This document shows, piece by piece, positions 14,307 to 28,490 of a stretch of 64,000 bases of DNA. The number at the start of each line of letters is the position of its first letter. Position 1 is the stretch's first letter. The position numbers were made by a program, and so were the translations under genes. The notes beneath the pieces are model-generated. The model saw nothing but the letters and a program-made list of their open reading frames with translations, did not search any database and was not told the DNA's origin. This DNA is from Mariniblastus sp. Lineage in GTDB: Bacteria; Planctomycetota; Planctomycetia; Pirellulales; Pirellulaceae. Where the stretch lies: contig JAKVBF010000003.1 in assembly GCA_022447555.1 (NCBI GenBank), positions 38,279 to 102,278 on the forward strand, in the 5' to 3' direction.

Positions 14307-15335
14307 TTAGAGATCTTCAGTTGAGTAGGTTGTGCCATCCGCGCGTTTACCCATTGAATCGAGGATGGACAGGTCAGCCGAACGCGAAATACTTCGTGTT
14401 GAACCGTCACCCATGGCAGCACAAATGATCGCTGGGTGTGCAGAACCGAAACCGTATTCTTCCGAATAGCCATCTTGAGTTCCCTGATTTCGGACGTTTT
14501 CAGTATCACCCAAAACACGTACTTCCCAGATGTCGTCGGTTCCAGTCAATGGACCGAACATACGCATACAGGTCCAGTCGGTTCCTTGGAAGTAACCATT
14601 CTTGTCCCACCAAAAGGCCCAAGATCCACCCGGTACAGTCCAGTTCTCAGCCGGTACAGCTTTTTCAGCCATTAGGATCGTGTTTGAAGTGCCGTCGATG
14701 ATGGAACCGAAACCGGTAGGTGTACATTTCACATAGCCACCGTTCCAGTTGTTGTGACATCCGCGAGTCAAGATTCCGGTCCAGACGCGTTCTGTCTCGT
14801 TGGAAATCATATCTTCGTAGTCACGCCATTGGAAACCGTTCCAGCCGCCGCCATTCCAGTTCGCCAGAACACCGGCGTAGTCTGCACAATGGATTGTGAT
14901 CCAGCCTTGGTTGGCAAAACGAGCACTTCGAGATGGGCAATTGAATGCAGGAATTGCCTTTGTGGAAATACCGTTGGTCGGATCCGTGAAACCGAATGTT
15001 TTGCGGCTGTCACTCAAATTGTTTTGTTCCATGTAAGGCAAAATTTGGAACATCCAGCTGCCGTTTTCTGCGGTGCCAAATGGTTGGTTGCCTTCGCTCC
15101 AAAAACTAGAGGCAGAACCACCGGTTGTTGGGTAGTGGCCGAGAGCCGATTCGTAGTTGTGACAAGCAAGTGCGTTTTGACGCATGTTGTTCATGCAGGT
15201 GGTTCGCCGAGCCGCTTCGCGAACTTGCTGAACCGCTGGCAACAACATACCGATGAGAATGCCAATAATGGCGATGACGACAAGCAATTCAACGAGTGTG
15301 AATGCCTTCCTCTGAGAGGTTGAGTGGAGTTTCAT
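14307..15335 (-). CDS. DUF1559 family pseudopilin-like protein
   Basis: This 342-residue protein has a type IV pilin/type II secretion pseudopilin N-terminus: [20 protein letters not shown] with cleavage expected before FTLVE. The stretch [18 protein letters not shown] follows. The C-terminal H-x9-DG signature of planctomycete DUF1559 proteins is present (HPAIICAAMGDG). The middle is rich in Gly, Asn, Trp and Cys. It should be processed by a prepilin peptidase and displayed on, or moved through, the envelope. AGGAT lies 8 bases before the ATG. It is followed by a hairpin and a lipoprotein gene. Planctomycete genomes carry many paralogues, and their role is unknown. Confidence 0.9.
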   Translation of the reverse strand: MKLHSTSQRKAFTLVELLVVIAIIGILIGMLLPAVQQVREAARRTTCMNNMRQNALACHNYESALGHYPTTGGSASSFWSEGNQPFGTAENGSWMFQILPYMEQNNLSDSRKTFGFTDPTNGISTKAIPAFNCPSRSARFANQGWITIHCADYAGVLANWNGGGWNGFQWRDYEDMISNETERVWTGILTRGCHNNWNGGYVKCTPTGFGSIIDGTSNTILMAEKAVPAENWTVPGGSWAFWWDKNGYFQGTDWTCMRMFGPLTGTDDIWEVRVLGDTENVRNQGTQDGYSEEYGFGSAHPAIICAAMGDGSTRSISRSADLSILDSMGKRADGTTYSTEDL

Positions 15336-20437: not shown

Positions 20438-22876
20438 CTAGTTCTGCCCCATTCCCATTGCAATGATGGCTTGGTTCGGTGTTTTCTTAGTGGCGGCGGG
20501 CGTCTGAGCATCGGATGCTTTAATTTTTTCCAGCTCGGCAATCACACCGCCCGCAGTAATTAAACCAGAAAAGGTAAGCGGTTCCTTTAGTTCGGGCGCG
20601 TAGATGGCGTAAAACGGAATGGCTTTTTGGCTATTTCCTAATTCCACGAGTTGCTGTTCCACCTCGGGCGATTTTGATTTATCGGCCTTTAAGGCGACAA
20701 TGTTGTTTTTAGCAAAAAAGCTGTAAGTGCTTCGGACGTTTAAGGCAACTGCCTCGTTTAGATCACATGTCGCTCAGTTTGGGCCCGTGAAGTCAATGAA
20801 TACGATTCGACTCTCTGCTTGTAATTCTCCTAGTCTCGCTTTCGAAAATTCTTGCCAATTAAGTTCATACTTTGGAGGTATGAGGAAGTTAAAGGAAAGC
20901 AGAGTTCCAAAGCTAAGAATTCCTATGCCCCAGGCCCAAGCTTTTAATTTCTCGGGTAGTTCGGCGGCCAATGACGTCCGTCCGATCCACCAACACGCGA
21001 GCGAAATGAAGAGGAGAGTCGTCAGTACGGCAACCATGTACTCAGACCAAGGTTCTTCGGTAAATGCCGCTAAAAGAAAAACGACGGTGCCCATTAGAAC
21101 AAATCCGGTGACCTGTTTGAACGTATTCATCCAGGCACCGGGACGGGGTAGCCACTTGATCGCACCTGGAAAGAGACCAATTAAAAGGTAAGGTGAAGCC
21201 ATCCCTAAACCAAGGAAGGTGAAAACGGCATAGGCGACCCACGCAGGTTGGCCCGCGATAATCGTCGTCGCTGGGACAAGTAGTGGGCCTGTGCATGGTG
21301 TGGCTAAAATAGTGGTTAAAATTCCCAGGAAATAGGCTCCCATGAGTCCTTCTTCTTCAGCCATTTTCCCCGCTCCGCCAGATAAACCTGGGATGGGTAT
21401 TTCCCAAACTCCCAACATGCTTAATCCAAATGCAAAGACGACCGACGTGATGATGATCGAGCCCATCATGCTCTTCGTTAGCCAGTCTCCCCAGCCCATT
21501 CCGAAAAAAGCAGCGAGTGTTGCCAACACCCAAAATACGGTCATCAAGCCCAACGCAAAGATCAGGTTCAACATGAAAATTTTAAAACGGCTTTCGCCTG
21601 CCTGTTGGACAAACGACATCACCTTGAGGCCAATTACAGGTAAGACGCATGGCATTGCATTTAAGATCAGGCCGGCCACGAAGGCCATTAAAAGATAGGT
21701 AGAGAGCGTGGCTGGAGAAATTTTCGGTACCGTCCCTGCGGCGGTGTCAGCCGTTTCCCAATAGGTTTTGGAGGCTTTACTGACCGCAACAGTGGTTGCA
21801 TCTGCGACTTCGAACGTGATTGCAACGGGCTCACCGACGATCGGGTTGTCAGCGACTTTAATTGGAACTTGGAACTGTATTGTTTGCGGGCGGTCACAGG
21901 CCTCATCGCAAACTTGGTAAACCATGACTCCATTCAAGGTGATGTTACCATAGCTATCCGCCGGGGCCGTTAGATCAACCGTCCAGGTGACACGATTCTC
22001 GTGATAATATTGGACGGGTTCTTCTTTTAACCCAAACGCGTGTTCGATTGGTTCTTCTGAAGGTGACGGCCATGATGTTGTCCAGCCAGACTTGCGAGGG
22101 AAGTAAAGCATCGTTGGAATGCTAGAGCGTTTCTCTGCTTTACTTTTTTCAAGCTTGTAGATGTGCCAACCCGGATCCATTACGGCCGTTATTTTAAGTT
22201 GTGTTGTGCCTCCCGGAGCAACCGCCGAATCGACCAGCTGTCCTGAAATTTCTGCATGCCCGTTCGGGGCTCGGAATATGGTTTCACCCGGCTCTGAGGA
22301 TTCCACCGTGTACTGGGAAAAGGCTGCTTCAACGGTCGAGATACTGGGATCAAATGGAATACAACCGGCCTTATCATTGCACACTTGGCCGTCGATCCGC
22401 ACTTTGATTTCGAGCTTTTTTTCATCCACTCCATCCGATAATTGAATGGGTGCGGTCCATGTCACGGCCCCGGAGAATTCCTCGACGGCCTGATCAAGAA
22501 CATTCTTTTTGGGGACGGGATCAACATTTGGAACGAATGGCCCAGTCACCTTAAATTGTTCTGATTCGGTGACTTTGAATTTTGTGGGAGATTGGCCATC
22601 CAGCTTCTTCTGTGAATAGCCATGCCATTCCGGTTTAATTTGCAATGTAACATTTAGGTGTCCATTCCGACTCGCTTCGTTCATGGTGAAATCGCCCTCG
22701 AACGCATATTCGGGTGTCGCATCAAACCCACCCCCGAAACCATCGCCAAATCCAGGTAAATCCTGAAGCAGTAAGCCTTCGGAGGTTTCGGTTTGCGCGA
22801 GCGTCAAATTCAGAGGTAAGCACGGGCCACAGGAAAGCAAGGCTACGATGCACACTGAAACGAGAAATTTGATCAT
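20438..22876 (-). CDS. dsbD: DsbD-type thiol:disulfide reductase, probable UxxC selenoprotein
   Basis: Read through one TGA, this gene encodes 812 residues. It has a signal peptide (1-27) and two periplasmic DsbD-alpha-like domains with Cys pairs (GQVCNDKAGC; YQVCDEAC). An eight-helix membrane domain carries the two redox Cys motifs NAMPCVLPVIGLK and ATPCTGPLL. A C-terminal thioredoxin domain follows. That domain reads FIDFTGPN, then TGA (codon 701), then ATCDLNE. In DsbD relatives this spot is the first Cys of CxxC, so the motif becomes UxxC. The frame continues 111 codons with the expected cis-Pro region (KAIPFYAIYAP) and ends at 20438. It would pass electrons from cytoplasmic thioredoxin to extracytoplasmic partners. 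The alternative is a nonsense mutation or base error at Cys. No selA/B/C/D genes are in this window. Confidence 0.85.
20736..20757 (-). promoter_or_regulatory. Candidate bacterial SECIS hairpin
   Basis: On the mRNA strand AGGC-AGTT-GCCT forms a 4-pair stem with a 4-base loop. It is extended by ACG/CGT below a 4-base one-sided bulge. The apical loop starts 23 bases after the TGA and has G as its second base. Both fit the usual bacterial SECIS rules (loop roughly 16-37 bases downstream, G among the first two loop bases). The hairpin is small, so by itself it is weak evidence. Confidence 0.6.
20774..20776 (-). other. Probable selenocysteine (TGA) codon
   Basis: This TGA is in frame with both flanking parts of the DsbD-like gene (the distance from the start codon is a multiple of three). 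It precedes ATC, so that the pair spells U-x-x-C at the thioredoxin active site. TGT/TGC differs from TGA by one base. Confidence 0.8.
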
Positions 22877-23079: not shown

Positions 23080-23634
23080 CTAGCGACGTTGTTTTGCTAC
23101 GGGGTCACTTTTGTTAGCCTCGCGACGCTCAAAGAAGCCCATGAATTTGGCCGCCATTATCTTGCCGTGAATCGGAATACAAAACCCCTGATCGGAACAC
23201 ATTTGGCCCGTGAATCTCACCACGGGCTTGATTTCGGATGGATTAACGTTCACCCCAAGCTCAATGGGGACGTAAAACTGAACGACTTCGTAATGTTTTT
23301 CGATACGAGCCTCGAAAAGGGGGTCTTTTTCGATAACCTTAGGTGTTTTGTCAGCTTTGAATTTATCAAGCATTCTAAATTGCTTGGATTGGGCAATCTC
23401 GATCAAGGAGCCCGGTCGATCCTCAGGTTGGTAGATTCCATAGATATAACATCCGGCGGGCAACTGTGCTTTGACGATCAGATACCCTTGGTTCGTACCT
23501 GATTGAATATGATAACGTGCATCAAAGCGCGGCTCATCCTCGCTCAGCTGGCCGATAACTTGATTGTTTAGGCTCAGTAGAGTCAGGCTGGTTAGCATTA
23601 AAAATAAAAAGAATGATTTATAATGATGGAACAA
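23080..23634 (-). CDS. Secreted DsbD N-terminal-domain-like protein
   Basis: This 184-residue protein has a signal peptide (hydrophobic 8-25). Its body matches the alpha-like domain seen in the neighbouring DsbD protein: KAQLPAGCYIYGIYQPE, VVQFYVPIELG, and the Cys pair MCSDQGFCIP near the end. It lacks the membrane and thioredoxin domains. It lies 203 bases upstream of the DsbD-like gene on the same strand. A role as an electron acceptor or partner of that reductase is likely but inferred. The start is TTG 23634, with AGGA about 10 bases upstream. An internal ATG at 23598 would shorten the signal peptide. Confidence 0.7.
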   Translation of the reverse strand: MFHHYKSFFLFLMLTSLTLLSLNNQVIGQLSEDEPRFDARYHIQSGTNQGYLIVKAQLPAGCYIYGIYQPEDRPGSLIEIAQSKQFRMLDKFKADKTPKVIEKDPLFEARIEKHYEVVQFYVPIELGVNVNPSEIKPVVRFTGQMCSDQGFCIPIHGKIMAAKFMGFFERREANKSDPVAKQRR

Positions 23635-25543: not shown

Positions 25544-26638
25544 TCAAGCGGCATTCTGACGGGGCGGCTTAGGTGCGTCGCCGTTCTGATGGAAAGCCGA
25601 TTGTTCAGCTTCCAGTTGGTGGATTGTTTTCTGCAACGATTTTAGCTTCTTCCGCATCTCGGGAAGTTTGGCAATCAAAGCATGGCTTTGCATACTCTCT
25701 CTCGCTGTAACAGCCGGCGCTCCAGCGTAAACTTGCCCTCCCTTTAGATCATGCATGACACCTGATTTGGCACATAATACTGAGTCGGTACCAATGGACA
25801 GGTGATCCCCAATTCCGACTTGTCCAGCCATCACAACACGATCGCCAGTAGACGAGCTGCCTGCGATTCCAACTTGTGAGCAGAGTAAATTGGCTTCACC
25901 AATTTGGCAGTTGTGAGCAATCATCACTTGATTGTCAATTTTTGAACCCTGCCCCACTTTAGTAGACTCGTAAGTTCCTCGATCAATCGTGGTATTTGCT
26001 CCTACTTCGACATCTGATCCTATTTCAACGTTCCCTAGCTGAGCGGATAGGGTGTGCCCCGTTTTGGTTGTGCGATAACCAAAACCGTACGCGCCTAAAA
26101 TTGCTCCTGCATGAATAATACTACGATCGCCTACAATTGTGTTTTCATACAGGACTGCGTTGGGGTAGATCTTCACGTTGGTCCCAACGACTGTGTTTTC
26201 CAAAAGGGTCACATTAGGAAAGATCACACTCCCGCATCCAATCGTGACCCCATCTGCGATGTGAGCTCCGGGATGTATTTCTACATCCTCGGAAATTCTC
26301 GCTGAAGGACTGACATAAGCTGCGGGACTGACACCAATACGTTTGCGTTGTATCGGAGGTCGAAATAACTGGACGATTGTTGCAAATGCGGATTCAGGAT
26401 CGTCGACACACAGAACAGTTTTGTTGTTAAGATCGGATGCCGCAAGTTGAAGTTCTGCTGCTACAACAGCGACCATCGATTCACATTTTAGGAACTTTTC
26501 GAAGTGTTTTCTATTCGTCGCGAAGGTTATTTCGCGGTGGCTTGCTAGGTTTATACTGGCAGCCGCAAAAACTTCTAGGTTTTCGTTTCCAATGATCGTC
26601 GCAGACACATGACTTGCAATCTCATTTAATCGCTTCAT
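25544..26638 (-). CDS. lpxD: UDP-3-O-acylglucosamine N-acyltransferase LpxD
   Basis: This 364-residue protein has an N-terminal LpxD domain (ITFATNRKHFEKFLKCE). A left-handed beta-helix of hexapeptide repeats then runs from about residue 105 to 300, with YENTIVGDRSIIHAGAILGAYGFGY and MIAHNCQIGEANLLCSQVGIAGSSSTGD, which contains the catalytic His (AHNCQIG). A C-terminal helical tail follows. It transfers the N-linked acyl chain in lipid A synthesis. It is the first gene of an lpxD-lpxI pair. Confidence 0.93.
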   Translation of the reverse strand: MKRLNEIASHVSATIIGNENLEVFAAASINLASHREITFATNRKHFEKFLKCESMVAVVAAELQLAASDLNNKTVLCVDDPESAFATIVQLFRPPIQRKRIGVSPAAYVSPSARISEDVEIHPGAHIADGVTIGCGSVIFPNVTLLENTVVGTNVKIYPNAVLYENTIVGDRSIIHAGAILGAYGFGYRTTKTGHTLSAQLGNVEIGSDVEVGANTTIDRGTYESTKVGQGSKIDNQVMIAHNCQIGEANLLCSQVGIAGSSSTGDRVVMAGQVGIGDHLSIGTDSVLCAKSGVMHDLKGGQVYAGAPAVTARESMQSHALIAKLPEMRKKLKSLQKTIHQLEAEQSAFHQNGDAPKPPRQNAA

Positions 26639-27167: not shown

Positions 27168-28313
27168 TTAGAGTTCGATATCATAATCTTGGTCACCATC
27201 ACGAGAACCAAAGACGGCATAGATAGTCGTCCAGTCAGTGGTTCGTGTTAGGTTGTGAACTGATGCGTCAGCAAAAGCGAAGTTAACGCCTGCTGGATGC
27301 ATAGAACCAGTTCCCCAAGCCTTTGCGTACTTGGCGTTACCAAGGATGGTGTTACGAGGATCGTATCCACCTGGGTAGTTTGGAGTTGGGCCGTAGCCTA
27401 GTGGTGGAGTGGCTTTCCAGCCAACACTTCCACGACCACGCATAGATGCACCAGTGATCCACATGCAGGTAGTACTTCGATCAGGAATACCAGTAGTAGC
27501 ATCCATAGTGATCGATCCAATGTTCTCACCGAACATGACGCTGTTAGAAGTTCCATCAGGAACAGTTTCCAGAGTCGACTTCTCACGTGGAGTCATGACA
27601 CCAGCGTAAGCACCCAGCTCGCCAACACGGTTACGTCCACCAGAGCTTGCACCCAGGATAGAACCGTAGTTAGTACGGCCAACTTCGTCACTTCGGCCGT
27701 TTGGCTCTGAAGGCCAGTACCATGTTAGGATACCAACGTAATCCTGGTTCAAGTCGCCAGCATTGCCGGAAACGTAAACAGGAGCAATAACGCCAGCAGC
27801 TTGAGCTGGAGTATCGTTAATTACGTCAGAAGGACATGTGAAGTGAGGGATCTCCATGTATGCCAAAGTCCAGTGATCGATGATGTTAGCGTAGCTCGTG
27901 TAAATAGGATCATCGTTGGCATCGACGTACGTCGTAAGATTCTTGTGGTAGTTGAATGCAAACGGGTCGTACAACTCAGAAACAGCTTGTAGCTCCATGA
28001 ACGGCATGACCATTGCAAGAGCTGATGACTGCTGGTTCATCCAGTAGTAATCTTCGTGTGATGAATTCAAGAATTCAGAACCCCAGCTAGATGCACCTTT
28101 GTGGCACAAAGACGCTGGTGGCAGACGCTTGTAAGCATCATGGTAGTTGTGAGCCGCAACGGCCAACTGACGAATTCGGTTAGCACAGTCGGTACGACGT
28201 GCTGCTTCACGAACCTGTTGAACGGCTGGCAAAAGCATACCAATAAGGATACCGATGATGGCGATGACCACCAAAAGTTCAACAAGGGTGAAACCCTTAC
28301 GAGAAACTGACAT
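27168..28313 (-). CDS. DUF1559 family pseudopilin-like protein
   Basis: This 381-residue protein has the prepilin motif [21 protein letters not shown] and then the [19 protein letters not shown] stretch shared by this family. The C-terminal signature here reads [12 protein letters not shown] (H-x9-DA rather than DG). The body is rich in Asn, Gly and Tyr and would form the extracytoplasmic beta-rich domain. I start at ATG 28313 because GGGAGTG lies upstream and pilin leaders are short. The frame is open for 59 more codons without family resemblance. It is about 40% longer upstream of the HxD motif in insert-like loops than a typical pilin. Confidence 0.9.
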
Positions 28314-28433
28314 AAAACACTCCCTTAATGAGGAACAAAAAAAACAAATGGTCCGCGAAACTGCAATGTACTGATTTATGAAAGGTTTCGCGAAAAAACT
28401 CAAATTCTTAATAAAGTCTATTCTAATAGTTTG

Positions 28434-28473
28434 TCGTTGCAAGCCCGTAAATCTCGTTGCAAGCCCGTAAATC
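28434..28473. repeat. Perfect 20-base tandem duplication upstream of DUF1559 gene
   Basis: TCGTTGCAAGCCCGTAAATC occurs twice, head to tail, 121-160 bases upstream of the pseudopilin start. It may be a recent slippage product or a doubled protein-binding site in the promoter region. Confidence 0.85.
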
Positions 28474-28490
28474 AAAAAACCATTAAACAC

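Follow-up and report, generated by a model that had tools for sequence, protein, structure and literature searches.

We identified a planctomycete DsbD-type gene in which an in-frame TGA, at the first position of the catalytic motif, is very probably read as selenocysteine (Sec), giving a full-length UxxC reductase; judging from the sequence evidence below, we put the probability of this reading at roughly 0.96. The gene (denoted Sec-DsbD; 20438–22876, minus strand) lies in a 64,000-nucleotide stretch of a Mariniblastus sp. genome, which we refer to as the window. With TGA translated as Sec, it encodes 812 residues and stops at TAG. The translation holds a single TGA (codon 701; 20774–20776, minus strand), with 700 codons on its 5' side and 111 on its 3' side before the TAG, just as a first-pass annotation of the sequence had reported. 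In the translation of the minus-strand frame 22876–20438, the surrounding residues read FIDFTGPN-U-ATC-DLNEAVALN, which places the TGA at the first position of a UxxC motif (U-A-T-C). The annotation had written this context as GPN-TGA-ATC, which is correct if ATC stands for the residues A-T-C but not if it stands for codons, which read GCG ACA TGT. The segment KAIPFYAIYAP, which it had placed downstream, is present in the translation. Its warning that the standard code would cut the protein at residue 700, with loss of the gamma domain, was borne out by the open reading frame calls in the window, and standard-code calling truncates the gene in the same way in two orthologues (L070 and L083). 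Its proposal that the TGA is read as Sec is supported by the sel genes, by homologues with Sec or Cys at the site, by conservation of the TGA, and by purifying selection downstream.

The protein carries the three parts by which we recognized a DsbD: a DsbD_N domain with two cysteines, a membrane domain with two cysteines predicted to be redox active, and a gamma domain, in which the usual CxxC appears as UxxC with Sec in place of the first cysteine. The DsbD_N-type sequence (PF11412; 63.4 bits against a Pfam cut-off of 25) forms two stretches within 21842–22690 (minus strand), the best at residues 63–180 and the second, by reading, at about residues 205–345; the motif CNDKAGC was read in the translation. 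The DsbD_TM domain (PF02683; 77.4 bits against a cut-off of 27.1) covers residues 394–603 (21068–21697, minus strand), where we read the cysteine motifs PCVLP and TPCTGP, and the membrane part also matches the CcdA structure 5vkv (E = 1.4e-6). The thioredoxin-like gamma region begins near residue 674 and extends as far as the stop (20438–20857, minus strand); it is interrupted by the TGA, which is spanned by the Thioredoxin_7 match (PF13899; residues 674–761, 30.1 bits against a cut-off of 27). A profile of the gamma domain built from 17 sequences (10 Sec and seven Cys) finds the gamma domain of Escherichia coli DsbD (2fwe; E = 7.8e-8), and the TGA column aligns to the first cysteine of its CxxC. 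An AlphaFold model of the 130-residue gamma domain, with cysteine at position 701, had a mean pLDDT of 89.7, and its top Foldseek matches were the DsbD gamma structures 4ip1, 1uc7, and 2fwg (TM-score 0.70–0.71). The score against PRK00293.1, an NCBIfam DsbD subfamily, was 103.7 bits, under the curated cut-off of 330, and we therefore do not file the protein under that subfamily.

At E 0.001, Sec-DsbD is the only full-length DsbD in its own genome (4.19 Mb, 97.5% complete), in a search that more divergent CcdA-like proteins, and genes lying in the 2–3% of the genome absent from the assembly, may escape. The sole other DsbD match in that genome is a small adjoining gene upstream (184 aa; 23080–23634, minus strand), with a CxxxxxC motif and a DsbD_N score of 20.3 bits, which falls short of the cut-off of 25; its product is possibly a separate electron acceptor. 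A similar gene, judged by reading, adjoins Sec-DsbD in L070 (6364–6987) and L083 (935–1492). The window and these two loci share the order glgX-like gene, purM, Sec-DsbD, small DsbD_N-like gene, and P-II gene, assigned by family searches in the window and by reading in the other two. Elsewhere in the window are two pseudopilin-like proteins (14307–15335 and 27168–28490, both minus strand); pseudopilin-like proteins of this sort are typical of planctomycetes.

A search for selA, selB, selC, and selD in the same genome, which the first-pass annotation had suggested, found all four: selA at 569 bits (cut-off 268), selB at 357.9 bits (cut-off 242), selC, the tRNA-Sec gene, at 68.6 bits (cut-off 47), and selD at 273.2 bits (cut-off 125). 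There were 12 further tRNA-Sec matches below the cut-off in this genome. Specificity was gauged on 14 control genomes, all of which gave a tRNA-Sec match at E 0.001 and five of which exceeded the Rfam cut-off; matches of 47–52 bits also pass it, both as second matches and in a genome with a Cys-type gene (G018). Because the Rfam cut-off discriminates poorly, we relied only on tRNA-Sec matches of at least 64 bits. In the source genome, SelD forms the C-terminal portion of a 733-aa protein (L052, 1393–3594, minus strand), whose N-terminal part resembles, by reading, an NADH dehydrogenase (FAD/NAD) domain.

In SelB systems, decoding of UGA competes with termination, and one could imagine a dual product that supplements the Sec reading: a functional short DsbD lacking the gamma domain at low selenium and the Sec form at high selenium. 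The truncated form would retain its N-terminal and transmembrane domains, but E. coli DsbD requires its gamma domain, and we consider a working short form unlikely.

Homologues were common among relatives. In a scan of the order, at least 274 of 296 genomes had a match at E 1e-30, and the loci read show TGA at the site in at least 11 of them (G000, G109, G039, G085, G067, G057, G074, G264, G060, G041, and G027). A twelfth TGA genome (G285) has the codon in a divergent paralogue (L195); G018, for which the scan listed one TGA, has Cys at the active site and was counted as Cys. A scan of named genomes for the TGA pattern returned at least 116 stretches, and from the 116 listed we recovered at least 49 DsbD genes with the TGA. 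This number is a lower bound because the filter was strict: a gene qualified only if a DsbD membrane motif preceded the TGA site and 40 or more open codons followed it. The 49 genes came from Planctomycetota (35), Verrucomicrobiota (10), and Kiritimatiellota (two, on two contigs of one isolate), with two more whose titles name no phylum. One candidate (L095) passed the first motif filter but showed no match to DsbD and was removed ahead of the count; at another locus (L109) the match extends over just 21 residues.

Closer to the window, the orthologues from Mariniblastus metagenome-assembled genomes keep the TGA at 78.5% (L070) and 76.8% (L083) identity over about 800 residues, and two loci found in genomes belonging to the window's genus (L174 and L175) encode proteins identical to those of L070 and L083 over the region used for the tree. 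Within the genus, 25 of 28 genomes had a match at E 1e-20. The window-type Sec gene was found in four of the genomes scanned (G000, G299, G300, and G315) and a second Sec type in six (G313, G309, G311, G318, G296, and G314); Cys-type genes were also seen in G296 (L198) and G317 (L183). A divergent DsbD paralogue (∼33%–36% identity) occurs in 16 genus genomes. It is itself an instance of a Sec/Cys switch inside one genus, with the TGA at the corresponding position in 13 of the 16 (Sec rows within L185–L200) and Cys in two (L184 in G310 and L189 in G267); the copy in G306 was left out of this split since its match ends before the site. Among these 13, the paralogue match in G317 holds further stops, two TGA and one TAG in all.

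Among the order-scan genomes in which the codon was read, selB exceeded its cut-off in 10 of 12 Sec genomes versus 10 of 25 Cys genomes (one-sided Fisher P = 0.015, kinship ignored), with G285 and G267 entering the comparison through the divergent paralogue; tRNA-Sec matches of at least 64 bits were found in 10 of 11 Sec genomes. The two Sec genomes with no selB above the cut-off were G057 (70% complete), which also had no clear tRNA-Sec, and G074 (65% complete). In the genus scan, selB was above the cut-off in 25 of 28 genomes; G315 (80% complete), G318 (89%), and G320 (71%) had no selB at E 1e-60, yet carry TGA-type genes.

Downstream from the TGA lies a SECIS-like hairpin, GAGGC-AGUU-GCCUU (20742–20755, minus strand), at offsets 21–34 from the U of UGA. 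Its stem has 5 bp, one of them G-U, and its loop, which begins 23 nt past the UGA, has a G at position 2. A G in the loop and a search range of 16–37 nt are usual in work on bacterial SECIS elements. We approached the SECIS question with a rule-based hairpin search that required a stem of at least 5 bp, a loop of 3–7 nt, a G in the first two loop positions, and a loop start 22–25 nt after the UGA, the last of these having been fixed after the first hairpin results. Under the full rule, 67 of the 69 distinct Sec genes had a hairpin, versus none of 27 Cys homologues; without the position rule, the counts were 68 of 69 and six of 27. When the genes were recoded synonymously (500 runs) with codons drawn from all rows, 15 of 69 qualified on average and never more than 25; with codons from Cys rows only, the average was 14.7 and the highest count 24. 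With the position rule lifted, the mean was 22.1 and the maximum 34. When 3' halves were exchanged between rows (300 runs), an average of 17.2 of 41 qualified and at most 24, against an observed 39 of 41. The stems vary in both sequence and encoded residues (GAGGC/GCCUU, UGAGAG/CUCUCA, UUAGAACG/UGUUCUAA, GAGAACA/UGUUCUC, and CGAAAAG/CUUUUCG). When only the window sequence is considered, 19% of synonymous recodings equal its hairpin score, and the window RNA segment in isolation prefers another fold (z-scores of −0.5 and −1.3). In a fixed-register pair count covering 63 of the 69 rows, the observed percentage paired was reached by 180 of 500 shuffles, the covariation score by 43, and the number of both-side changes by three. 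The stem occupies three different registers, and the recoding and half-swap controls therefore replace this count.

Several loci define the edges of the hairpin set. One DsbD gene from Verrucomicrobiota (L133) has the active-site TGA but no qualifying hairpin, which would fit either another SECIS geometry or decay. Two loci that match DsbD by BLAST but have no upstream membrane motif (L076 and L123) lie outside the 69 rows, although the former was included in an earlier 45-row set, and one Cys locus (L037) failed the motif rule and is absent from the 27 Cys rows. In a Cys gene from G279 (L012), the sequence GTCGCCTTGAA after the Cys codon is identical to the 3' arm region in Sec genes such as L062, and its 5' arm differs from theirs; this is a possible SECIS remnant.

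These data also bear on whether the TGA might instead be read as Trp or Cys, through a variant code or natural suppression, with no Sec involved. Cys stands at this column in other homologues, so insertion of Cys would also work. However, TGA ends six of the 31 other open stretches of at least 250 codons in the window (not all of which need be genes), including an lpxD-like gene at 25544; the genome has a full sel gene set; and the hairpin tracks TGA, not TGC or TGT. We regard a reading as Trp or Cys as highly improbable.

Sequence downstream from the TGA is well conserved. Between the window and L070, 79 of 111 aligned residues are identical, with a dN of 0.21 and a dS of 2.3 (near saturation); between the window and L083, 74 of 111 are identical, with a dN of 0.27; and L070 and L083 differ by a dN of 0.12 and a dS of 0.87. 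The codons 3' of the TGA are under purifying selection, and the disabling changes in close relatives that the first-pass annotation had named as grounds against Sec are absent, the frame being intact. A nonsense mutation or pseudogene, in which the protein would stop at residue 700 and the sequence beyond it would decay, is suggested by the stop that the standard code places at the TGA and by the still intact transmembrane part, but a downstream dN well under dS, the recurrence of the same codon in many lineages, and the conserved hairpin make it scarcely credible. Finally, although the assembly is a draft in 62 contigs, a TGC or TGT misread as TGA is so very unlikely that we set it aside, because the same TGA appears in separate assemblies, both same-genus metagenome-assembled genomes and many further genomes, and TGA genes carry the hairpin whereas Cys genes do not.

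Homologues include both kinds of active site that the annotation had proposed to look for, Sec and Cys, and we asked how the two are arranged in a phylogeny with 99 protein rows, of which 72 are Sec and 27 Cys (active-site residue masked). The tree was inferred with a quick method, has some long branches, and holds two genes twice as differently cut loci (L186/L202 and L188/L201), each of which the hairpin count takes once. It implies at least five Sec/Cys changes, of which four are forced by the starred branches. Two sister pairs stand out: G109 (Sec) with G279 (Cys), at a support of 99, and G264 (Sec) with G129 (Cys), at a support of 98. In the first pair, G109 has selB, and G279 has no SelB above the cut-off; the best tRNA-Sec match in G279 (50.7 bits, 86 nt) exceeds the Rfam cut-off, yet it resembles the second matches of 47–52 bits and 85–87 nt, unlike those of 64–76 bits and 95–96 nt. 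On the other hand, three genomes with Cys at the site (G129, G267, and G310) have kept SelB and a strong tRNA-Sec, and loss of the machinery is therefore not needed for a change to Cys. Close Sec/Cys sister pairs of this kind could be used to measure how Sec affects a transmembrane electron relay, and the Sec-DsbD family as a whole offers a SECIS alignment that can be counted cleanly against matched Cys genes.

Returning to Sec insertion as the preferred reading, we infer the following scheme. During translation, SelB with Sec-tRNA(Sec) would bind the hairpin that lies 23 nt downstream from UGA701 and insert Sec, so that the ribosome would continue through the 111 C-terminal residues. The product would be a full-length transmembrane thiol:disulfide reductase whose gamma domain has Sec as the attacking residue, at the N-terminal cysteine position of the motif. 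In E. coli, DsbD takes electrons from thioredoxin in the cytoplasm and hands them over the membrane to acceptors in the periplasm. By analogy, electrons in the window protein may pass from cytoplasmic thioredoxin to the two transmembrane cysteines, on to a selenenylsulfide in the gamma domain, and then to the periplasmic N-terminal domain or domains and putative clients. A wider picture builds on Sec-DsbD being the sole full-length DsbD found: in these planctomycetes, reducing power would reach the envelope through one selenoenzyme, thiol homeostasis there would depend on selenium, and lineages would shift between Sec and Cys, some of them tracking the Sec machinery. This picture is tentative and may well not hold.

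We take cd02953 to be the gamma domain of DsbD. A survey of marine GOS metagenomes (PMC2398784) describes, in its main text, a UxxC selenoprotein of 22 sequences assigned to cd02953, Trx-like 2 (thiol disulfide interchange protein). It shares its UxxC selenoprotein nature with the window protein, a likeness drawn from the motif and the description, and probably includes the Sec-DsbD family or close kin; the survey is of metagenomes, and its main text has no occurrence of DsbD, Planctomyc, or Verrucomicrob, whereas the full-length DsbD architecture is a feature of the window protein. Similarly, the catalogue of Zhang et al. 2006 (PMC1794560) includes, in the part consulted, a thiol:disulfide interchange selenoprotein in Syntrophus aciditrophicus and two Geobacter species, and a 2026 review (PMC13188914) gives a UxxC entry, WP_011366075.1, in the part consulted. 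By description, this protein likewise has UxxC in a thiol:disulfide interchange protein; the review entry is under PF13098, whereas the window protein matches PF13899. UxxC thiol:disulfide interchange selenoproteins are thus already known, having been catalogued in 2006 and 2008. Planctomycete selenoproteins are reported in the part consulted of PMC4807772, whose supplementary table may list a full-length DsbD selenoprotein from these phyla; we found no description of one in the portions of the literature covered, and deep-Sep (PMC12013277) has no occurrence of Planctomyc, Verrucomicro, disulfide, apical loop, or Dsb.

The top NCBIfam match of the window protein is TsoB (NF045694), a rhodanese/DsbD fusion-like selenoprotein, across residues 368–743, a span that takes in the membrane part and the beginning of the gamma domain. 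The match reaches 150.5 bits against a curated cut-off of 805, and Pfam finds no rhodanese domain. TsoB has two Sec residues in a UxxxxU motif, as given in the part consulted of PMC13188914, whereas the window protein has UxxC and a single TGA. With E. coli DsbD it shares the order of DsbD_N, DsbD_TM, and thioredoxin-like domains, and its gamma domain matches the E. coli structures 2fwe, 1uc7, and 1vrs by profile and fold; it differs in having predicted Sec for the first gamma cysteine and two DsbD_N stretches. Sequence comparison makes a firm case for a full-length DsbD form of the putative selenoprotein, spread over Planctomycetota and Verrucomicrobiota with a conserved SECIS, and against the literature covered it is these features that are new.
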